Made by a program: the position numbers and the translations under genes. From positions 186,001-250,000 of the forward strand of contig NZ_JACOMF010000002.1 in assembly GCF_014283215.1 (NCBI RefSeq): 64,000 nucleotides of DNA. The letters run 5' to 3'. Source of the stretch: Siccirubricoccus deserti. GTDB taxonomy: Bacteria; Pseudomonadota; Alphaproteobacteria; Acetobacterales; Acetobacteraceae. This document shows positions 4,322 to 13,971 of the stretch, one piece after another. Every line of letters begins with the position of its first letter. The stretch's first letter is position 1. Below the pieces are notes generated by a model. The model saw only the letters and a list, made by a program, of their open reading frames with translations. It had not been told where the DNA came from and did no database searches.

Positions 4322-7222
4322 CTAGCCGAACCGTGCCAGCGTGAACTCCGGCGGCACCGCATCCCGCCCCAATACCGCATCCGCCGTCATCCGGCCGGCG
4401 ATCGGCGCCAAGGTGTAGCCATTGCTGGTCACCGCCTGGAACAGGCCGGGGACCCCCGGCACCTCGCCCAGCAGCGGCGCCCGGTCCACCTCCACCGCCA
4501 GCCCGGTCCAGGCGCGGAGGGCGTGCATCCCGGCCAGCGCCGGCAGCACCCGCCCGGCGACCCACAGGTTGCCCTCGATGGAACGGCGCAGGTTGCGCGG
4601 GGAACCCCGCGCATCCAGCACCCCGGGCCAGCCGCCGCCGATCAGCACATGACCGCCGTCGCCCTGCTTCAGCGACAGGTGCCGCCCGGCATGGGCGACC
4701 AGGTGGCGCATCGCCGGCGCCGCCGCCTCGGTGGCGATCACCTGCTGCACGGACCCCACCACCGGCAGGCTGACGCCGAGCATGCCCGCGATCCGCCCGG
4801 CGTAGGCGCCGCCGCAATTGACGATGCGCCCGGCGCGAATCTCGCCGGCCCCGCTCGCCACGGTGAAGCCGCTGCCGGCGCGGGCGATGCCCTGCACCTC
4901 CACCCCTTCCCGCAGCCGGGCGCCGGCGTTTCCGGCCAGCCGGCGCAGGGCGGCGGTGCCGCGCAGCGGGTCGATCTGCCCCTCGCCGGGGCTGAAGCCG
5001 GCGCCGATGAAATCCGGGCCGAGATAGGGCGCCAGGCTGCGCAGCTCATTGGCGCCGAGTAGCTGGCTGTCGAGGCCCTGGCGCCGCTCGACCGCCACCT
5101 TGGCGCGCAGCCAGGCGAATTGCGCCGGGGTTTCGGCCAGCATCAGCCCACCTTCGGTGCGGATGCCAAGCCCCTCCCCCGCCTCGACGGCAAGCTGCTT
5201 CCAGAGGGCGATGCTGCGCGGCCCGAGCGGCAGCCGGTCGATCGACGGGCCGCCCTCCTGGCTGCCGTCGAAATCATAGCTGAGGAGCTGGACATGCAGG
5301 CTGCCGGCATTGGCGGTGCTGGCCGCCATGCCCGTCTCGCCGCGTTCCACCAGCAGCACATCGGCGCCCTCCCGCGCCAGGAACAGCGCGGTGGAGAGGC
5401 CGAGGGCGCCGCCGCCGATGACCAGCACCTCGCAGGATTCCGGCCGCGGCGCGGCGGGGCGGCCGGCCCAGGCGTTGTACTGCGGCCGCGGGTAGGCCGG
5501 CCAATCGCCGCCCTCGGGCACCTCCAGCATCAGCGCGGCGGCCGGCACCGGCTTCACCGGGGCGCGCGGCGCGGCGAAGCCGGCTTCGTCCGAGGCGCCC
5601 ACCAGCCGGGCGATGGCGGCGCCGCACATCCGCCCCTGGCAGCGGCCCATGCCGGCGCGCGTCGCCTTCTTCAGCGCGCCGAGGCTGCGGGCGCCGGCGG
5701 CGTGCTCGGCCCGCAGCCGGCCGGCGGTCACCTCCTCGCAGCGGCAGAGGACGGTGTCATCGGCGACCGCGGCGATGTCGAAGGGAGGCGCGGCGAAGAT
5801 CCGCCACAACGCAGCCTGGAACGCCGCGGCGCGGCGCCACTCGGCCCGCGCCGGCGCACCATCCGCCGCGGCGAAGCCGAGATCCCGCGCCGCCGCCAGC
5901 CCGGCCAGCCGGCCACGCGCGAGCGCGACGCGGGCGCCGCCGATCGTCGCGCCGTCGCCGACCGCGAAGACCGCATCCAGCGAGGTGCGGCCGACCTCAT
6001 CGGTGACCGTCTCCAGCCGCCCGAGCCCGCTGTCGACGAAGCGATGCGCCGCGCCGAGCGCGCGGGCCAGCCCGGTCTCCGGCTGGAAGCCGAGGTTCAG
6101 CGCGCAGGCATCCGCCGCGATCCGCTGCTCTCCCGCCGGCGTCGCCAGCCTAAGGGCGGCGAAGCGGCCGTCGCCCTCGCAGCCGAGGATGGTCGTGCCC
6201 CAGAGCAGCGGCACCTTGGCGGCGCTCAGCCTGCGCAGGATGCGGAGCCCGTCCCAGGCCAGGTCGGGCGCCGTGCGCAGCAGCCGCGCCGCGTCGCGCA
6301 GCAGGGCGAGGCCCGGCTTCGGCGCCACCTCCGCCACCGCCGCGACGCGCACGCCGCCTTCCAGCAATTCGCAGGCAAGCTGCAGGTTGAGCGGGCCATT
6401 GCCGGCGATCACCACGCTTTCCCCGGGCGAGACACGGTTGGCACGCGCCAGGGTCTGCATCGCCCCGGTCGTCATCACCCCGGGCAGGATCCAGCCGGGC
6501 ACCGGCACCGGACGTTCATGCGCGCCGGTGGCGAGGATCAGCCGGCGCGGGCGGAAGGTGAAGGCGGTCTCGCCGACCACCACGGCGATCTCATCCGGCG
6601 CGAAGCCGCCCCAGACGGTGGCGCCGCCGAGCATCTCCACCCCCGCCGCCCGCGCCTTGGCGCGCAGCGCCTCGCCCTGGCGGTGCTGCGCATCGGGTGC
6701 CGCATGGGTGTGGCTGGCGGCGAGCGGCTTCAGATACTGGCCGCCGGCCTCCACGCGCTCATCCAGCAGGATGACGGCGGCACCCGCCTCGGCCGCGGCG
6801 CAGGCAGCGGCCAGCCCGGCCGGACCGGCGCCGACCACCAGCACGTCGCATGCACGCTCGGCGATGGCGGCGGGCGGTGCGGCGAGCGGTGCCGGCAGGG
6901 CGGGGATCGCGCCCTGCACCTCCATGCCGGCGGCCACCTTCACCAGGCAGGCACGCTGGCCCGGCTTGCCATCGATGGTGACGATGCAGTCGAAGCAGGC
7001 GCCCATGCCGCAATAGAGGCCACGCGGCGCGCCGCCGGCGGTGTGGCGATAGGCGAGGATGCCGGCGGCCGAGAGCGCCGCAGCCAGGGTCTCGCCCGGC
7101 AACGCCTCGATCTCCCGCCCCTCGAAGCGCAGGCGGAGCGGCGTGCCGGCGGGGCGGATGTCCTTGTGGCGCAGGCGCAGGCCCTTGCCGCTGGACGGGG
7201 TATCGGGGAAGGGGCCGCGCAT
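4322..7222 (-). CDS. Fused 2Fe-2S / FAD-NAD / DAO-type flavin oxidoreductase (HcnABC- or opine-oxidase-like, single chain)
   Basis: A 966-residue protein joining three units that are usually separate subunits. Residues 25-105 form a small 2Fe-2S domain (Cys71, 76, 79, 92; LYCGMGACFDCIV). Residues 125-545 form an FAD/NAD-binding unit (Rossmann VLVVGAGPAG at 127-136) ending in a bacterioferritin-ferredoxin-like 2Fe-2S knuckle (Cys493, 495, 528, 533). Residues 598-966 form a D-amino-acid-oxidase-type FAD unit (VLVIGGGALG). The order matches the A, B and C subunits of hydrogen cyanide synthase, opine oxidase and D-hydroxyproline dehydrogenase. It probably oxidises an amino acid, imino acid or opine and passes electrons onward; the substrate is unknown. 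The start is uncertain: ATGs at 7222, 7234 and 7294 are in frame and none has a clear ribosome site. It is divergent from the M20 peptidase gene, with 115 bp between. Confidence 0.85.
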   Translation of the reverse strand: MRGPFPDTPSSGKGLRLRHKDIRPAGTPLRLRFEGREIEALPGETLAAALSAAGILAYRHTAGGAPRGLYCGMGACFDCIVTIDGKPGQRACLVKVAAGMEVQGAIPALPAPLAAPPAAIAERACDVLVVGAGPAGLAAACAAAEAGAAVILLDERVEAGGQYLKPLAASHTHAAPDAQHRQGEALRAKARAAGVEMLGGATVWGGFAPDEIAVVVGETAFTFRPRRLILATGAHERPVPVPGWILPGVMTTGAMQTLARANRVSPGESVVIAGNGPLNLQLACELLEGGVRVAAVAEVAPKPGLALLRDAARLLRTAPDLAWDGLRILRRLSAAKVPLLWGTTILGCEGDGRFAALRLATPAGEQRIAADACALNLGFQPETGLARALGAAHRFVDSGLGRLETVTDEVGRTSLDAVFAVGDGATIGGARVALARGRLAGLAAARDLGFAAADGAPARAEWRRAAAFQAALWRIFAAPPFDIAAVADDTVLCRCEEVTAGRLRAEHAAGARSLGALKKATRAGMGRCQGRMCGAAIARLVGASDEAGFAAPRAPVKPVPAAALMLEVPEGGDWPAYPRPQYNAWAGRPAAPRPESCEVLVIGGGALGLSTALFLAREGADVLLVERGETGMAASTANAGSLHVQLLSYDFDGSQEGGPSIDRLPLGPRSIALWKQLAVEAGEGLGIRTEGGLMLAETPAQFAWLRAKVAVERRQGLDSQLLGANELRSLAPYLGPDFIGAGFSPGEGQIDPLRGTAALRRLAGNAGARLREGVEVQGIARAGSGFTVASGAGEIRAGRIVNCGGAYAGRIAGMLGVSLPVVGSVQQVIATEAAAPAMRHLVAHAGRHLSLKQGDGGHVLIGGGWPGVLDARGSPRNLRRSIEGNLWVAGRVLPALAGMHALRAWTGLAVEVDRAPLLGEVPGVPGLFQAVTSNGYTLAPIAGRMTADAVLGRDAVPPEFTLARFG

Positions 7223-7337
7223 CGCCGCCAGCATGCCGGGGCCGACCGCCGGGCAAAAGCCTTTCCGTGCCGCGGCCGGGGCTTCTTCCGCCATCCCGGC
7301 GGTGCCAGGATGCCGGCGCCATTGAGGGGAAATCCGC

Positions 7338-8747
7338 ATGCCAGGGTCACGCGAAGGCGCCATTGCACGGGCCGTCGCCCGCTACGACGACGGGCAGTAT
7401 CTCGCGGCCCTCCGCACCCTGGTCGCGGTGCCGACCGAGAGCCAGATGCCGCAGCGCCTGCCCGACCTCTACCGCTACTGCGCCGAGGTGCTGCCACCAA
7501 TGCTGGCCGATATGGGTTTCGTCTCCACCGTGCTCGACAACCCGGAGGCGGGGCGTGGCCCGGTGCTGCTGGCGACCCGCATCGAGGATCCCGCGCTGCC
7601 GACCGTGCTGGTCTACGGCCATGGCGATGTGGTGCGCGGGCTGGCGCCGCAGTGGAGCAACGGCCGCGACCCCTGGGCGGTGACGGTCGAGGGCGACCGC
7701 TGGTATGGCCGCGGCACGGTCGACAACAAGGGTCAGCACCTGATCGCGCTGGAAGCGCTGCGCGCCGTGCTGGCCGAACGCGGCCGGCTGGGCTTCAACG
7801 CCAAATTCTTCGTCGAGACCGGCGAGGAGGTCGGCTCTCCGGGCCTTGCCGAATTCCTGCAACTGCACCGCGAGGCCTGCGCCGCCGACGTGTTCATCGC
7901 CCTCGACGGGCCGCGCCAGACCACCTTCATGCCGGAGATGTCGCTCGGCGCCCGGGGCGGCGTCGCCTTCGACCTGATGGTGGAGTACCGCGAGGGCGAG
8001 CATCATTCCGGCCATTGGGGCGGGGTGCTGGATGATCCGGGATTCGTCCTGGCCCATGCGCTGGCGTCGATCGTCACGCCGCGCGGGAAGATCCTGGTGG
8101 ATGGCTGGCTGCCGCGGCAGGTGCCCGCCGCGGTGAAGGCGGCCGTCGATGCGCTGGTGTTCGAGGACATCCCCGGCCTGCCCGAAGGCAGCGCGGATTG
8201 GGGCGAGCCGGGCCTGTCCAAGGCGGAGCGGATCTACTCCTCGACCGGCGTCATTGTCCTTGCCTCGGTCTGCGGCCACCCGGATGCGCCGACCAATGCG
8301 GTGCAGGGCAAGGCGCGGGCCAGGCTGCAGGTGCGGCACACCGTCGATGTGCCGGCCGAGACCATCGTGCCGAACCTCCGCCGCCACCTCGATGCGCGGG
8401 GCTTCGGGATGGTGCGGATCGAGGAGGCGCTGAACCGTTCGATGTTCCCGGCCAGCCGCACCGATCCGGAGAACCCCTGGGTGAAGGCGGTGGCGCGGTC
8501 GATGCAGCGCACCTCCAACCGCGCGCCGAACATCGTGCCCAACTCTTCCGGCTCCTCGCCCTCGGACCTGTTCCTGAAGATCCTCGACGCGCCCTGCATC
8601 TGGATTCCGAACAGCTACCCTGGCTGCAACCAGCATGGGCCGGATGAGCATGCGCTGGCGCCGCTGCTGCGGGAAGGGCTGGGACTGATGGCCGGCATCT
8701 GGTGGGATTTCGGCACCGGCGATGCGCCCGCGGCGAAGGGTGTCTGA
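7338..8747 (+). CDS. M20 family metallopeptidase
   Basis: A 469-residue zinc peptidase of the M20 (ArgE/DapE/carboxypeptidase G2/dipeptidase) clan. The metal ligands are in order: YGHGDVV (His, then Asp), GRGTVDNKG (bridging Asp), ETGEEVGS (catalytic Glu and ligand Glu) and GCNQHGPDEH (final His). A dimerisation domain occupies the middle. It should hydrolyse a dipeptide or N-acylated amino acid in the cytoplasm; no signal peptide is seen. GAGGGGA precedes the ATG. It is divergent from the fused amino-acid-oxidase-like gene and followed by the remnant of a peptide-binding protein, which suggests a peptide or opine catabolic island. Confidence 0.9.
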   Translation: MPGSREGAIARAVARYDDGQYLAALRTLVAVPTESQMPQRLPDLYRYCAEVLPPMLADMGFVSTVLDNPEAGRGPVLLATRIEDPALPTVLVYGHGDVVRGLAPQWSNGRDPWAVTVEGDRWYGRGTVDNKGQHLIALEALRAVLAERGRLGFNAKFFVETGEEVGSPGLAEFLQLHREACAADVFIALDGPRQTTFMPEMSLGARGGVAFDLMVEYREGEHHSGHWGGVLDDPGFVLAHALASIVTPRGKILVDGWLPRQVPAAVKAAVDALVFEDIPGLPEGSADWGEPGLSKAERIYSSTGVIVLASVCGHPDAPTNAVQGKARARLQVRHTVDVPAETIVPNLRRHLDARGFGMVRIEEALNRSMFPASRTDPENPWVKAVARSMQRTSNRAPNIVPNSSGSSPSDLFLKILDAPCIWIPNSYPGCNQHGPDEHALAPLLREGLGLMAGIWWDFGTGDAPAAKGV

Positions 8748-8800
8748 GACGCGGAAGGCCCGGCCGCCGCGCCACTTGTCATTTGTGATGAGGCGGTAAG

Positions 8801-9169
8801 TCATCCTCTCCCAGGGCTGCGCCGGCCCCTACCAGCCGGGTTGCGGGCGAAGGTGAAGACCACGTCATCCGCGGTGAAGAGCGTGCCGTTCTGGAAGCGC
8901 ACGCCCTCCCGCAGCCGGAACTCCCAACTGCGGTCGTCGATGGCGCGCCACCCGGTGGCGAGGCCGGGCTGCGGCCGCTGGTCGAGATCCGGATGCACCA
9001 GCCGGTCGAGCACATGCCAGGTCAGTGCAGGGTTGGGCGATAGGCCGAAGAAATGCGGATCCATGGAGGTGAAGGCACCGCCCACCGCAATGATGAGGTC
9101 GGCCGCCTTCGCCGGCATGGCCAGCAGTCCGGCCAGGGCAAGCCCGGGCCATCGCGCCCGATGTCGCAT
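8801..9169 (-). pseudogene. Truncated family 5 (peptide/opine) ABC transporter substrate-binding protein
   Basis: Only about 115 recognisable residues of a protein that is normally 500-540 long. A good ribosome site (AGGAGG) precedes the ATG at 9169. A signal peptide (MRHRARWPGLALAGLLAMPAKA) is followed by DLIIAVGGAFTSMDPHFF and LREGVRFQNGTLFTADDVVF, the standard N-terminal block of DppA/OppA-type proteins. Homology stops at FARNPAG and the frame runs into low-complexity residues to a stop. No other frame continues the family and no permease or ATPase gene follows. I read it as the 5' stump left by a deletion. The signal sequence and translation signals are intact, so a short exported peptide could still be made. 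Confidence 0.8.
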
Positions 9170-9233
9170 CTCCCGGCCTCCTTGCTCTCCCCGGAACAAG
9201 GAGGCCGGAAGGCGCGCCGCCGATACAAGCGGA

Positions 9234-10166
9234 TCAGTTTCCGCTGTAGTAGAGGGTGACGGTGTGGGTCGCCTCGGCGAACATCAGCCAGCGCTCCACC
9301 AGCAACCCGCCGAGCGCCAGCACCGCCGCCAGGGTCAGCGCCGCGGCGGCCAGCCCGCCGCCTAGCAGCAGGGCGAGCAGCGCCAGCAGCATCGGCGCGG
9401 CGAAGCCAGCAAGCAGGGTGATGTGGCGCAGCCTGGCGGCGTGCTTGCGGGCGATGCGGAAGCCCATCTCCCGCAGCAGGTAGTTGGTTTCCGTATGCGG
9501 CGGTTCGAGCGGCCGGACCTTGCCGATGAAGCCGAGGCTGGTGGCGGATTCCACCGTCGCCTCCGGCGGCGCCGCATCGATCGCCCGCCAATAGGCCCGC
9601 TTCAGCACCAGCGCCGCGCCACCGCCCAGCAGCGCCAGCACCACCGCAACGACGCCATCGCCCCAGAAGCCGCAGAGCATGGCCAGCAGCGCGGCGCCGC
9701 TGAAGGCCGAGAGCACCAGATAGCCCGGCACCACCAGCGGATGGTGCCATTGCCGGATCGGCGGCAGGGAGGCGTAGATCATACCGGTGCAGTAGACGGT
9801 GGCCACTGCCCCGGCTGCGGCCAGCAGCCCCATTGCCGCCGCCAGCCCCGGCCGGTCCGTGAGCAGCGCCAGGCCGAAGATTCCGGCCGGCACATAGGTG
9901 GCCAGCGCCGCCACCCCCTCCCGCGACAGCCAGGAGCTGCGCCATTGGCTGACGGCGCGCCAGGCCCGCCGCGGATTGCCGAGATGCGCGGTGGAGGAGA
10001 GCAGGCCAGCGGTGACGAGGACCAGCGCCAGGACCAGCGCGGTCAGGCCGAAGCCCTGCCCGCCCGGCACCAGCCCGAGCGGCCGCAGCAGCCCGAGCCA
10101 GAACAGCAACCCGTAGCCGGCACCGGAGGCGGTGGTGAAGAAGACGATCGAAGGTGCGGGGTTCAT
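9234..10166 (-). CDS. soeC: Membrane anchor subunit of a molybdoenzyme (SoeC/DmsC family)
   Basis: A 310-residue integral membrane protein with about eight hydrophobic segments, of the DmsC/SoeC anchor type that hands electrons to or takes them from quinone. AGLLSSTAHLGNPRRAWRA near residue 60 is the conserved anchor-family block, and a conserved IYASLPPIRQWHHPLV follows in the middle. The ATG overlaps the soeB stop as ATGA, so it is the third gene of a three-gene operon. The symbol rests on the operon matching sulfite dehydrogenase SoeABC; a DMSO- or thiosulfate-type reductase anchor is the alternative. Confidence 0.85.
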   Translation of the reverse strand: MNPAPSIVFFTTASGAGYGLLFWLGLLRPLGLVPGGQGFGLTALVLALVLVTAGLLSSTAHLGNPRRAWRAVSQWRSSWLSREGVAALATYVPAGIFGLALLTDRPGLAAAMGLLAAAGAVATVYCTGMIYASLPPIRQWHHPLVVPGYLVLSAFSGAALLAMLCGFWGDGVVAVVLALLGGGAALVLKRAYWRAIDAAPPEATVESATSLGFIGKVRPLEPPHTETNYLLREMGFRIARKHAARLRHITLLAGFAAPMLLALLALLLGGGLAAAALTLAAVLALGGLLVERWLMFAEATHTVTLYYSGN

Positions 10167-10933
10167 ACCTGCCGCTCCGATTCCATCGCCGGCATGCGGG
10201 TCAGCACCCGGTCCACCCAGCGCAGCAGCGGGTTCTTCACATCCATATGGGTCGGCGCATCCTCCACCGGCTTGGCCGGCGGCGTGGCGCGCTTGCGCGG
10301 CGGCAGGTAGCGGTTCACCGGGCTGTAGCCCAGCTCCGGCATCAGCGGCTGGCCACCGCGCTCTGCGACCAGCCTGCTGACCGCGCTGTCGGGGTCGCCG
10401 AGGTCGCCGAAATGCCGCGCCTTGGTCGGGCAGGTCAGCACACAGGCCGGCTGGCGCTGCGCCTCCGGGATGGTCTCGTTGTAGATGCGGTCGATGCAGA
10501 GGGTGCATTTCTTCATCACCCCCTCATCCTCGTCCATCTCCCGCGCGCCATAGGGGCAGGCCCAGGCGCAGAGGCCGCAGCCGATGCAGGTGTCGGCATT
10601 GACCAGCACGATGCCATCCTCGGCGCGCTTGTAGCTGGCGCCGGTGGGGCAGACGGTGACGCAGGCCGGCGTCTCGCAATGCAGGCAGGAGCGGGGGAAG
10701 TGCACGGTGCGCCCGGCCTCGCCCTCGCCTGCCTCGAAGCTGTGGACGCGGTTGAACCAGACGCCCTCGGCGCCGGCCGAATAGGGCTTGAGGTCGGGCA
10801 GCGGCGCGCTGTGGCCGCTGGCGTTCCATTCCTTGCAGTTGGTGGCGCAGGCCTGGCAGCCGACACAGGTGTCGAGGTCGATGACGAGGCCGAGCTTCTT
10901 CTGGCCGGGGGCGATTTCGGGCAGGCAGGTCAT
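10163..10933 (-). CDS. soeB: Four-cluster ferredoxin subunit of a molybdoenzyme (SoeB/DmsB family)
   Basis: A 256-residue electron-transfer subunit with four [4Fe-4S] binding groups: CVGCQACATNC, CLHCETPACVTVC, CIGCGLCAWACPYGAREMD and CTLCIDRIYN with a later CVLTC. This matches the SoeB, DmsB and PsrB family, which wires the catalytic subunit to the membrane anchor. There is no signal peptide, consistent with a cytoplasmic complex as described for SoeABC. Both ends overlap neighbours by four bases (ATGA), showing a tightly coupled operon. Confidence 0.9.
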   Translation of the reverse strand: MTCLPEIAPGQKKLGLVIDLDTCVGCQACATNCKEWNASGHSAPLPDLKPYSAGAEGVWFNRVHSFEAGEGEAGRTVHFPRSCLHCETPACVTVCPTGASYKRAEDGIVLVNADTCIGCGLCAWACPYGAREMDEDEGVMKKCTLCIDRIYNETIPEAQRQPACVLTCPTKARHFGDLGDPDSAVSRLVAERGGQPLMPELGYSPVNRYLPPRKRATPPAKPVEDAPTHMDVKNPLLRWVDRVLTRMPAMESERQV

Positions 10934-13803
10934 GCGGAGCTCTTCACCGAATAGCGCAGGATGTCGGGACGGTCGGGCATGTGCGGCGGCGGGCGCAACG
11001 CATCGGGATGCGGGCTGGTGATGCCGGCCTCCTCCGGCGCCGCCTTGGTGACGCGCACCCGCAAATCGTACCAGGCGGCCTGGCCGGTGACGGGGTCGGC
11101 ATTCGCGTGGCGGAAGCCGCCCTGGGCGGGCAGCCATTCGCTGATGACGTGGTTGAGCAGGAAGCCGCGCTGCGCCTCCGGGCTGTCCGGCGTCAGGCCC
11201 CAGGCGCCGGCGCGCTTGCCGATGGCGTTCCAGGTCCAGACGGTATCCGGGTTCACGCCCTCCATCAGCGCGACCTGGCATTTCAGCCTGCCGCTGCGGC
11301 TGTCCACCCAGACCCAGTCATCGGCCGCGAGCCCCATCGCCTCCGCCCGGCTGCGCGCCATGTAGAGCTTGTTGGCGCCGTGGATCTGCCGCAGCCAGGC
11401 ATTCATCGAGCCCCAGGAATGGTACATCGCCATCGGCCGCTGGGTGACGGCGGAGAGCGGGAACTCCGCCAAGTCCTGGCTCGCGTGCTCCAGCGGTGCG
11501 TACCAGATGGGCAGCGGGTCGCAGTAGGTGCGGATGCGCTCGCGCAGCCTTTCGGGCGGCTGCTTGGCGCCATGGCCCTCGGCGGCAAGGCGGAATTTCT
11601 GCAGCGGCTCGGACCAGAGCTGCAGCACGATCTGGTCGGACTTCCCCATCAGGCCCATGGCCTTGGAGTGCTCCAGATAGATGCGGTTGGCGTGCTTCAT
11701 CCATTCCTGCTCGGGCGGCAGGTGGTCGCGCCAGAAGCAGCCATTGTCGATGTAGCGCTGGAGCTGGTCCGGGTTGGGCTCGCCGACGCCCTTCCTGCTG
11801 CCGTCGAGGCCGCGGAAGCCGGCGAGCGGGCCGACCCCCGGCATGCGCTGGTGGTTCACGATGTAGTCCGGGTAGTCCTTGAAGCGCGGCGCGCCATCCT
11901 CCTTCACGAAGGCCGGCAGGCCGAGCCGCGCGCCCAGCTCGATCAGCACGTCCTGGAAGGGGCGCACGTCGCGGTCGGGCTTGATCACCGGCTGGCGGAT
12001 CGCATCGCCCGCGCCATGCGGGCTGCCGATTGGCCGGTCGAGGATCGAGATGCAGTCCCAGCGCTCAAGGTAGGTGGTGTCGGGCAGGATGAGGTCGGCG
12101 TAGGGCACCGTCTCGCTGAAATAGGCGTCCGAGTAGATGACATGCGGGATGCGATAGCTGCCATCCGCCTTCGTCTCGGTCAGGATGCGGATCACCTCGC
12201 CCGGATTCATGGCGCTGTTCCAGGCCATGTTGGCCATGAACATGAACAGCGTGTCGATCGGGTAGGGATCCTCGGCGCCGGCATTGCCGATGACCGTGTG
12301 CATCATCCCGTGCAGCGCCAGCGGCGCTTCCCAGGAGAAGGCCTTATCGATGCGCAGCGGGTTACCCTCGTCGTCGACCAGCAGGTCATCCGGCCCATGC
12401 GGGAAGGAGAGGATATTGCCCGCCAGCGGCGTGTTCGGCTTGGCGCCCTTGCCGGCTGGCCCCGGCCCCGGCGGGATCGGCCGCGGGAAAGGCGATTTGT
12501 AGCGCCAGGAACCGGGGGTATCGACCGCGCCCAGCAGCATCTGCAGCAGGTGCAGCGCGCGGCAGGTGTGAAAACCGTTGGAATGCGCGCTGATGCCGCG
12601 CATGGCGTGGAAGGCGACCGGCCGGCCGGTGACGGTCTCGTGCCGGCGGCCCCAGACATCGGTCCAGGGCTGTTCCAGCGTGATCGCCTGGTTGAAGGCG
12701 ACCTCGGCAATCTCGTCGGCGATACGGCGGATGCGGTCGGCGGTGATGCCGCAGCGTTCCGCCACCGCCTCCGGCGCGTAGTCGGGCGTGAGGTAACGCT
12801 CCGCCAGCAGATGGAAAACCGGACGGGCGCTGCGGCCATCGGGCAGGATGAAATTCCCGACCATCACCGGCGACAGGTCCGCCGCCTGCGCCTCGGTCGC
12901 GCCGCGGGCGCGGTCCCAGGCCAGTGGCTGGCCATTCGCATCACGGGCGAAGAGCCCGTCGTCGGCGCCGCCGGGATTGCGCACAACCAGCCAGGCGGCA
13001 TTGGTGTAGCGCGCCATGAACTCCAGATCGATGCGATCGGTCCGCAGCAGCTCATGCACCAGGGCCAGCACGAAGAGCCCGTCGGTGCCGGGGCGCAGCC
13101 CCACCCATTCATCGGCGATGGCGGAATAGCCGGTGCGCACCGGGTTGACCGAGAGGAATTTGGCGCCGCGCGCCTTCAGCTTCGACAGGCCGAGCTTGAT
13201 CGGGTTGCTGTCGTGATCCTCGGCGACGCCGAACATCAGCAGGTATTTGGTGCGCTCCCAATCCGGCTCGCCGAATTCCCAGAAGCTGCCGCCGATGGAG
13301 TAGAGCCCGCCGGCCGCCATGTTGACCGAGCAGAAGCCGCCATGCGCGGCGAAATTCGGCGTGCCGAATTGCGCCGCCCAGAAGCCGGTCAGGCTCTGCG
13401 ACTGGTCGCGGCCGGTGAAGAAGGCGAGGCGGCGCGGATCGGTCTCCCGCACATGCCGCAGCCAGCCGGTCGCGGTTTCCAGCGCTTCCTCCCAGCTGAT
13501 CTCGGCATATTCGCCGCTGCCGCGCGGGCCGACCCGCTTCAGGGGCGCGCGCAGCCGGGCCGGGGCATACTGGGTCATGATGCCCGCGCTGCCCTTGCCG
13601 CAGAGCACGCCGCGGTTCACCGGATGGTCCGGGTTGCCCTCGATGTAGCGGATCCTGCCATCCTTCAGATGCACCCGGATGCCGCAGCGGCAGGCGCACA
13701 TGTAGCAGGTGGTGGTCTTGACCGTGTCACCCACCGGCGGCGAGTAGTCGACGCGGGCATCCGGCAACGGGCGGGTTGGCGGCGGCGTCGGCGCTTCCGG
13801 CAT
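10930..13803 (-). CDS. soeA: Molybdopterin oxidoreductase catalytic subunit, probable sulfite:quinone dehydrogenase SoeA
   Basis: A 957-residue CISM/DMSO-reductase family enzyme. The N-terminal [4Fe-4S] motif reads TTTCYMCACRCGIRVHLKDG with the fourth Cys in GVLCGKG. The likely molybdenum-ligand Cys is in HGGFCSVNMAAGG. The C-terminal molydop-binding domain begins around LAEFPLSAVTQRPMAMYHS. The CYMCACRCGI start, the size, the absence of a Tat signal and the A-B-C gene order fit SoeA, which oxidises sulfite to sulfate in the cytoplasm; this assignment is from memory of the family, not a search. The ATG at 13803 is chosen with AGAGG upstream; an in-frame extension to 13896 looks non-coding. 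The promoter should lie in 13804-13971. Confidence 0.85.
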   Translation of the reverse strand: MPEAPTPPPTRPLPDARVDYSPPVGDTVKTTTCYMCACRCGIRVHLKDGRIRYIEGNPDHPVNRGVLCGKGSAGIMTQYAPARLRAPLKRVGPRGSGEYAEISWEEALETATGWLRHVRETDPRRLAFFTGRDQSQSLTGFWAAQFGTPNFAAHGGFCSVNMAAGGLYSIGGSFWEFGEPDWERTKYLLMFGVAEDHDSNPIKLGLSKLKARGAKFLSVNPVRTGYSAIADEWVGLRPGTDGLFVLALVHELLRTDRIDLEFMARYTNAAWLVVRNPGGADDGLFARDANGQPLAWDRARGATEAQAADLSPVMVGNFILPDGRSARPVFHLLAERYLTPDYAPEAVAERCGITADRIRRIADEIAEVAFNQAITLEQPWTDVWGRRHETVTGRPVAFHAMRGISAHSNGFHTCRALHLLQMLLGAVDTPGSWRYKSPFPRPIPPGPGPAGKGAKPNTPLAGNILSFPHGPDDLLVDDEGNPLRIDKAFSWEAPLALHGMMHTVIGNAGAEDPYPIDTLFMFMANMAWNSAMNPGEVIRILTETKADGSYRIPHVIYSDAYFSETVPYADLILPDTTYLERWDCISILDRPIGSPHGAGDAIRQPVIKPDRDVRPFQDVLIELGARLGLPAFVKEDGAPRFKDYPDYIVNHQRMPGVGPLAGFRGLDGSRKGVGEPNPDQLQRYIDNGCFWRDHLPPEQEWMKHANRIYLEHSKAMGLMGKSDQIVLQLWSEPLQKFRLAAEGHGAKQPPERLRERIRTYCDPLPIWYAPLEHASQDLAEFPLSAVTQRPMAMYHSWGSMNAWLRQIHGANKLYMARSRAEAMGLAADDWVWVDSRSGRLKCQVALMEGVNPDTVWTWNAIGKRAGAWGLTPDSPEAQRGFLLNHVISEWLPAQGGFRHANADPVTGQAAWYDLRVRVTKAAPEEAGITSPHPDALRPPPHMPDRPDILRYSVKSSA

Positions 13804-13971
13804 GCCTCTGGTGTCTCCCCTCACTGGTTGGCCGGCAAGTAACGCACGCGCCACTCCTGCGGGCAATTCTCGCGCCCGGCCGGAATTCCACGACATTATT
13901 CGTGGGATAGGGTGGCTGATGCAGATTTCACGCGAAAGCGGCGGAGTTCATTTCCCGTGTCGCCGGCAACG

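Follow-up and report, generated by a model that had tools for sequence, protein, structure and literature searches.

A single-chain, predicted flavin and iron-sulfur protein widespread in Proteobacteria, probably joining the three parts of an amino- or imino-acid dehydrogenase

We analysed a window of 64,000 nucleotides from Siccirubricoccus deserti (contig NZ_JACOMF010000002.1, positions 186,001 to 250,000), in which one minus-strand open frame had been proposed to hold, on a single polypeptide, the subunits of enzymes that are elsewhere made as separate proteins. The frame runs uninterrupted from an ATG at 7222 to a stop at 4322, and its 966 codons, as originally claimed, encode 966 amino acids. 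A domain search recovered the four Pfam domains that had been named for it (Fer2_4, Pyr_redox_2, Fer2_BFD and DAO), in that order and all above the curated cut-offs. We refer to this protein as the fusion, and to its parts as gamma, alpha and beta after the subunits of the split enzymes.

4322 to 7222, minus strand: probable single-chain gamma-alpha-beta flavoprotein dehydrogenase, 966 amino acids (open frame, Pfam domains, homologues, structure model)
6914 to 7144, minus strand: gamma part, Fer2_4 [2Fe-2S] domain, residues 27-103 (Pfam PF13510, E 1.6e-24)
6947 to 7012, minus strand: Cys71-x4-Cys76-x2-Cys79-x12-Cys92, predicted first [2Fe-2S] ligand set (sequence)
5918 to 6847, minus strand: alpha part, Pyr_redox_2 domain for flavin adenine dinucleotide (FAD), residues 126-435 (Pfam PF07992, E 8.8e-32)
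5600 to 5749, minus strand: alpha part, BFD-like Fe-S knuckle (Fer2_BFD), residues 492-541, with Cys493, 495, 528 and 533 (Pfam PF04324, E 1.1e-8)
5432 to 5560, minus strand: alpha-beta junction, residues 555-597 (end of the frame at locus L041 against the alignment, compared by eye)
4379 to 5428, minus strand: beta part, DAO FAD domain, residues 599-948 (Pfam PF01266, E 6.6e-61; structural alignments)
4508 to 4516, minus strand: Arg903-x-Trp905, putative flavin mononucleotide (FMN)-binding motif of alpha/beta complexes (named in PMC4575208)

The eight cysteines of the two Fe-S regions stood at the positions originally given for them. Together with Arg903 and Trp905 they are invariant in all 80 full-length fusions that we collected, the window copy included, and the same 80 keep both GxGxxG FAD motifs (Gly131/133/136 and Gly603/605/608). 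The DAO domain is likely to be the part that oxidises the substrate. Up to about residue 567 the junction resembles the C-terminus of the alpha protein from the two-gene locus L041, and its remainder is likely a fusion linker. Among the best 25 of 114 matching NCBIfam models none scored above its cut-off for the fusion. Many relatives start at a conserved M-R-L, where the window protein and those of loci L048 and L010 read Leu (G-K-G-L-R-L; window 7160-7222), so the true start is probably upstream; an alternative ATG at 7363 would give a product of 1013 amino acids.

The fusion is widespread in Proteobacteria and is neither an artefact nor a rarity. In the genome of the window strain, which comprises 6.33 Mb in 275 contigs, 4322-7222 is the sole full copy. 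Within the same family, 36 of 150 genomes matched at E <=1e-100, the own genome counted; in 28 of these a single place covered residues 25-952 or more, with an in-frame TGA in one case, and the other eight had partial or paired places, several of them at contig ends. A thin sample of the phylum gave matches at E 1e-80 in five of 398 genomes, again with the own genome counted, and one of the four others (L041) has beta on a gene of its own behind a gamma-alpha gene. Sixteen records of a plasmid collection matched at 1e-50, seven of them with 80% or more of the query covered at a single place. Six matches are annotated as 'FAD-dependent oxidoreductase', another, which is a separate DAO gene, is called 'FAD-binding oxidoreductase', and the others are unannotated. 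The original prediction had held that the fusion would be less novel if it proved common and characterised. Common it is, and a search of the open-access full-text literature returned neither a characterisation nor a description of the single-chain form, which an unexamined paper may still mention.

An alignment-based scan of named genomes gave at least 594 pattern matches, 580 of them encoding a relative. The best 80 were retained; since likeness to the fusion decided the ranking, this set is biased towards it. With the window and six plasmid loci these 80 make up 87 collected loci. The retained relatives come from Acetobacteraceae (including Gluconobacter, Komagataeibacter and Gluconacetobacter), Comamonadaceae, rhizobia, Stappia, Jannaschia, Thalassospira, Granulosicoccus and one Pelagibacteraceae genome. 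A full-length, stop-free frame was present in 80 of the 87 loci, the exceptions being L057 (one stop), L047 and the partial L067, L077, L102, L104 and L112. The copy at L047 (Azospirillum sp. B510, L047:8017-10506) is open only in its later part, as a frame of 829 amino acids covering the seed residues from 168 on. Across 29 aligned relatives, identity to the window protein was 30-81%. The ratio of nonsynonymous to synonymous substitution rates (dN/dS), by a simple Nei-Gojobori count, was 0.27 between the window copy and its nearest relative, L048 from Siccirubricoccus phaeus, and falls inside the range of 0.13-0.35 found when five close copies were compared in all ten pairings.

The kinship with alpha/beta/gamma enzymes of the opine-dehydrogenase type, which the original prediction had proposed, was borne out by shared domains and motifs. 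The enzyme OdhABC is a dye-linked dehydrogenase, not an oxidase, and consists of three subunits at about 1:1:1 (alpha4beta4gamma4) with two FAD, one FMN between alpha and beta, and one [2Fe-2S] cluster (PMC4575208). The fusion shares with OdhABC and with the OoxB-(2Fe-2S)-OoxA proteins of Ti plasmids matching gamma, alpha and beta domains and the ADP-binding, first [2Fe-2S], CxC...CxxxxC and Arg-x-Trp motifs. It differs from them in its gene neighbours, in the distance of OoxB in the beta tree, and in being one frame of 966 amino acids where they are three proteins, so we place it as a single-chain variant and not as a member of the split type. The claim that a single chain fixes stoichiometry is qualified by the split OdhABC, which is already close to 1:1:1. 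The published gamma motif C-x4-C-x2-C-x11-12-C (PMC4575208) fits all 80 fusions, and the 2Fe-2S protein encoded between ooxB and ooxA on pTiA6 has the same spacing as the fusion. Each of the 14 separate beta/DAO proteins used for comparison has Arg-x-Trp, and the one ThiO sequence tested lacks it.

That the parts are separate in the described opine and D-hydroxyproline enzymes agrees with PMC4575208 and with pTiA6, where three overlapping genes encode OoxB, the (2Fe-2S) protein and OoxA. Nitratireductor likewise has three overlapping genes, for gamma, alpha and beta, in the same order as in the fusion. The separation is not general, however: in Roseicitreum (L134), as in L041, gamma and alpha are fused and beta is separate, the L134 genes overlapping by 14 bases, and the alpha chain of L-proline dehydrogenase (L-ProDH) already unites gamma and alpha (PMC4575208). 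The two-gene form of L134 and L041 provides the separate relatives placed nearest to the fusions, from which it differs by a stop between alpha and beta. Gene orders described for sets of the opine-dehydrogenase type are B-C-A, C-A-B and B1-C-A-B2 (PMC4575208). Azospirillum brasilense Cd (L133:4486-8456) has a four-gene set, beta1-gamma-alpha-beta2, in the order described for Bradyrhizobium; in the beta tree its beta1 groups with OoxB and its beta2 with the Nitratireductor beta.

A tree of the DAO part, which the original prediction had proposed, was built with OoxB in it and ThiO as outgroup. The 32 fusions chosen from the 80 full-length ones fell on one side of a branch with support 98/96, with OoxB distant, a position to be read with a program warning that the long ThiO outgroup branch attaches at the OoxB pair. 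With PH1364 added and the long row of L126 omitted, 31 fusions still stood together (95/97).

An AlphaFold2 model of the full chain, made from an alignment of 30 sequences, had a mean predicted local distance difference test score (pLDDT) of 90.9 and a predicted TM-score (pTM) of 0.91. With VIA-align, the C-terminal part of the model matched glycine oxidase 4ysh_B (Z 44.6, root-mean-square deviation (rmsd) 2.2, 359 residues) and the L-proline dehydrogenase beta chain 1y56_B (Z 43.1, rmsd 2.1, 358 residues). Matches of this kind mostly cover residues 592-966, so they barely test the alpha half. The alignments of five beta chains of sarcosine oxidase run from model residue 495-505 through 966, and because they begin inside the alpha knuckle they hint, and no more, that the alpha-beta contact of the complexes is kept in the single chain. 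Foldseek matches include 1y56_A (target TM 0.83) and SoxA chains, which a sequence search locates in the N-terminal half of the fusion. No solved chain among the 50 Foldseek matches listed spans the whole fusion (best query TM-score 0.46), and a search of a viral structure library returned no match spanning it.

The two chains of L-proline dehydrogenase from Pyrococcus horikoshii (PH1363/PH1364, 1y56) thus both match the model; this enzyme also has gamma and alpha on one chain (PMC4575208) and an Arg-x-Trp in beta, whereas its beta is a separate chain, which the beta tree sets apart from the fusion clade on a very long branch. Heterotetrameric sarcosine oxidase SoxA/SoxB (1vrq, 2gag) resembles the fusion in an alpha chain with Fer2_4 and a Pyr_redox-type domain and a beta chain with DAO. 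The fusion scores below the cut-offs of these families, and the SoxA alpha chain continues, where the fusion has DAO, into another domain that we take to be GCV_T. Glycine oxidase ThiO shares the DAO fold, 4ysh being the top-scoring PDB relative of the fusion's beta part, but it is a single domain without Fe-S parts and, in one sequence, without Arg-x-Trp, and the fusion falls short of the cut-off of its family, TIGR02352.

Neighbouring genes were sought by tblastn with seeds mainly from annotated Azospirillum and Agrobacterium vitis loci, at chosen identity thresholds of 30-50% by family, and were counted in the 60 loci that had 5.5 kb or more to either side, a number that leaves out the window and takes in the seeds' own loci. 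A DapA-like gene was found in 55 of them, a binding protein of the SBP3 family and a permease in 50 each, GntR in 39, an ATPase in 35, a hydantoinase in 35, an M20 gene in 31, a hydantoinase or M20 gene in 50, and DUF3830 in 18. Over all 86 relatives' loci the DapA-like gene was present in 69, and in 58 of these it lay within 300 bases of the fusion. The DapA-like proteins (n=58) keep K-E-S-T, whose lysine is presumably the Schiff-base lysine, and an invariant YNNPA, followed by Thr in at least 80%. The neighbour in Belnapia reads YNNPAT where three aligned dihydrodipicolinate synthases (DHDPS) read YNVPGR, with Thr in place of the Arg that, we assume, binds the substrate carboxylate in the Y-N-x-P-x-R motif of DHDPS. 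On the NCBIfam dapA model, TIGR00674, the Azospirillum protein scores just above the cut-off and the Gluconobacter protein just under it, at 200.5 bits. The name 'dapA' is probably wrong for the function of this neighbour.

The hydantoinases of Azospirillum and A. vitis score above the cut-offs of TIGR02033 and PRK13404. PDB relatives of the ATP-binding cassette (ABC) binding protein are assorted amino-acid binders, with opine binders among the weaker ones, and no substrate can be inferred from them; a sequence search with the DUF3830 neighbour gave no PDB match. Taken together, this gene company suggests an uncharacterised catabolic pathway in most relatives. At the Pelagibacteraceae locus (L126:3371-14983) the fusion is accompanied by a DapA-like gene and a hydantoinase, and apparent genes of a tripartite ATP-independent periplasmic (TRAP) transporter, identified by eye, replace the ABC transporter. 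Six loci of acetic acid bacteria (L101, L109, L111, L114, L120 and L123) carry a second, split alpha/beta pair at about 0.6-4.3 kb, some 6-9 kb from the fusion, and this pair is accompanied by its own, distant DapA-like gene.

The window strain has its fusion gene intact, and the flanking block of DapA-like, SBP3 and permease genes that close relatives carry is gone. The locus L060 is collinear by blastn with window 12735-8843 and, piecewise, with 7190-897, and the following features lie between or beside these stretches.

7191 to 8842, no strand: replacement scar, where about 6.1 kb of the collinear L060 (3870-9999; DapA-like, SBP3 and permease genes) corresponds to 1.65 kb here (blastn collinearity on both sides)
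7338 to 8747, plus strand: M20 family peptidase, PRK07079 subfamily (NF005478, 578.6 bits, cut-off 330)
8769 to 9199, minus strand: SBP_bac_5 gene remnants, residues 2-116 and a scrap of 192-228 with two stops (Pfam SBP_bac_5; C112:194834-195169 and 194769-194882)

The replacement at 7191-9199 was not seen in the relatives compared. The divergent M20 peptidase had been taken as a hint at amino-acid or opine catabolism, which proved weak and local: in a genome of the same genus (G063) its homologues lie on contigs C29 (84%) and C26 (51%) and the fusion on C16, so the gene says little about the substrate, though other M20 genes do neighbour the fusion in 31 of the 60 loci. Beyond the remnants, at 9234-13896 on the minus strand, what looks by eye like a gene set for a molybdopterin oxidoreductase, a membrane anchor and a multi-cluster ferredoxin is present.

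Based on domains, motifs and the structure model, we consider it probable that the fusion is a single-chain gamma-alpha-beta flavin and Fe-S dehydrogenase of amino or imino acids, of the type of the opine, D-hydroxyproline and archaeal L-proline dehydrogenases. The C-terminal DAO domain would dehydrogenate an amino acid or a secondary amine at its own FAD. Electrons would then pass to an FMN at the meeting point of beta and alpha, by the Arg-x-Trp motif, and onward to the FAD and the Fe-S centre or centres of the alpha and gamma parts, with a final acceptor that would be respiratory rather than mainly oxygen. The internal path from FAD over Fe-S to FAD in the original prediction omits the FMN, and we have redrawn it with FMN between the two flavoprotein parts; FMN is probably the missing relay, because OdhABC has it between alpha and beta (PMC4575208) and Arg-x-Trp is kept in the fusion. 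In most relatives the amino acid would be imported by the amino-acid ABC transporter and released by the hydantoinase or M20 hydrolase, and the imine or keto acid formed by the fusion would go to the neighbouring Schiff-base lyase of the DapA family.

Several observations weigh against this interpretation. The BFD-like knuckle may hold no cluster, because the iron content of OdhABC fits one [2Fe-2S] per alpha-beta-gamma unit (PMC4575208). The knuckle spacing of the fusion, C-x-C-x32-C-x4-C, differs from the alpha motif printed as C-x-C-x15-20-C-x4-C in the Fig 6 legend of that source; yet among 12 split alpha proteins, OoxA of pTiA6 included, none matched a spacing of x12-24 and all matched x27-37, so the printed form misfits the reference enzymes too. 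In the beta tree the two-gene pair (L134, L041) joins the fusions next, weakly (85/71), and the alpha-domain tree puts this pair among the fusions (92/91), which then are not one group. Two changes of gene state are counted on the alpha tree, a single change occurs in 0% of 200 bootstrap trees, and omission of L126 leaves this unchanged; an approximately unbiased (AU) test of the 31 fusions as a single clade on the alpha data gave p 0.052, which is not quite a rejection. The beta tree thus favours one fusion event, whereas under the alpha tree the gene may have split later, been exchanged or been fused twice. Five of the 60 well-covered loci have no DapA gene, and the Azospirillum DapA-like protein is narrowly above the TIGR00674 cut-off (207.8 vs 206.15 bits), so it may have a DHDPS-like role. 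Finally, the window strain has no DapA-like, SBP3 or permease gene beside its fusion, and no close DapA or SBP3 homologue was found elsewhere in its genome, the best matches being 34% and 29% identical.

This last point bears on the idea that the gene of the window strain has outlived a lost pathway as an orphan and is now decaying or serving another purpose. The exchange of about 6.1 kb for 1.65 kb, the adjoining SBP5 remnants and the missing homologues speak for it. However, frame and motifs are intact, and the dN/dS of 0.27 is close to the 0.26 between L048 and L049, two relatives that have the block. The end branch of the window copy measured against that of L048 was 0.087 vs 0.14 in the beta tree and 0.12 vs 0.10 in the alpha tree, although neither dN/dS nor branch lengths would reveal a recent loss. 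We regard the orphan state as somewhat unlikely. An unlikely alternative for the function is a hydroxyproline-type enzyme, which would oxidise a cyclic, (hydroxy)proline-like amino acid to a pyrroline for deamination by the DapA-like neighbour. The deaminase of the D-hydroxyproline pathway is DapA-like, and such a reading would suit the kinship with D-hydroxyproline and L-proline dehydrogenases, the DapA-like gene in 55 of 60 loci, and the second split flavoenzyme pair with its further DapA-like gene in the six acetic acid bacteria. Of 30 genomes that carry the fusion, however, the window's own not among them, only 13 had a member of the hydroxyproline epimerase family (Pro_racemase) above cut-off, which speaks against the canonical pathway; hydantoinase and M20 genes are, to our knowledge, foreign to it.

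A role as an opine dehydrogenase, cleaving N-(carboxyalkyl) amino acids to an amino acid and a keto acid, would agree with the domain set and motifs of OdhABC and Oox, but is improbable: OoxB lies far from the fusion clade, albeit where it meets the long outgroup branch, a DapA-like lyase would be superfluous after opine cleavage, and arginase and ornithine cyclodeaminase are not annotated in the three annotated plasmid loci, although no search was aimed at them. More improbable still is an oxidase of the glycine or sarcosine type, or a one-chain enzyme like HcnABC that forms hydrogen cyanide. The DAO domain does align best with glycine oxidase 4ysh, yet the fusion reached only 121.2 of 250.8 bits for ThiO (TIGR02352) and, for the SoxA and SoxB families, 150.2 of 1164 (TIGR01372) and 86.4 of 529.45 (TIGR01373), so identity with these oxidases was rejected; there was also no GCV_T among its Pfam matches, and the beta tree places the ThiO outgroup very far away. 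That the frame is an artefact merging separate genes can be dismissed, for even though long chance frames abound in sequence of such high G+C, the same single frame recurs at 80 of the 87 loci, window included, across many genera, with the parts in one continuous frame under purifying selection.

If the fusion is, as we think probable, a single-chain dehydrogenase, it may also be the core of a widespread and so far unrecognised module, a proposal that we make tentatively and give somewhat less than an even chance. The module would consist of an amino-acid importer, a hydantoinase or M20 hydrolase, the fused diflavin/FMN/Fe-S dehydrogenase, a DapA-type lyase and sometimes DUF3830, and would serve to use a cyclic or N-acylated amino acid that is not among the known nutrients of bacteria. 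Its range, with some variation in the gene set, would take in acetic acid bacteria, rhizobia, Comamonadaceae and a SAR11-type genome, and the window strain would have kept the enzyme after the module was dismantled. The recurring gene set would then point to a nutrient masked by the annotation 'FAD-dependent oxidoreductase'. A natural single chain could ease expression, structure solving and spectroscopy of the machinery of opine, hydroxyproline and proline dehydrogenases, and the three-gene, two-gene and one-gene states may serve as a ladder for how electron-transfer complexes turn into single proteins.

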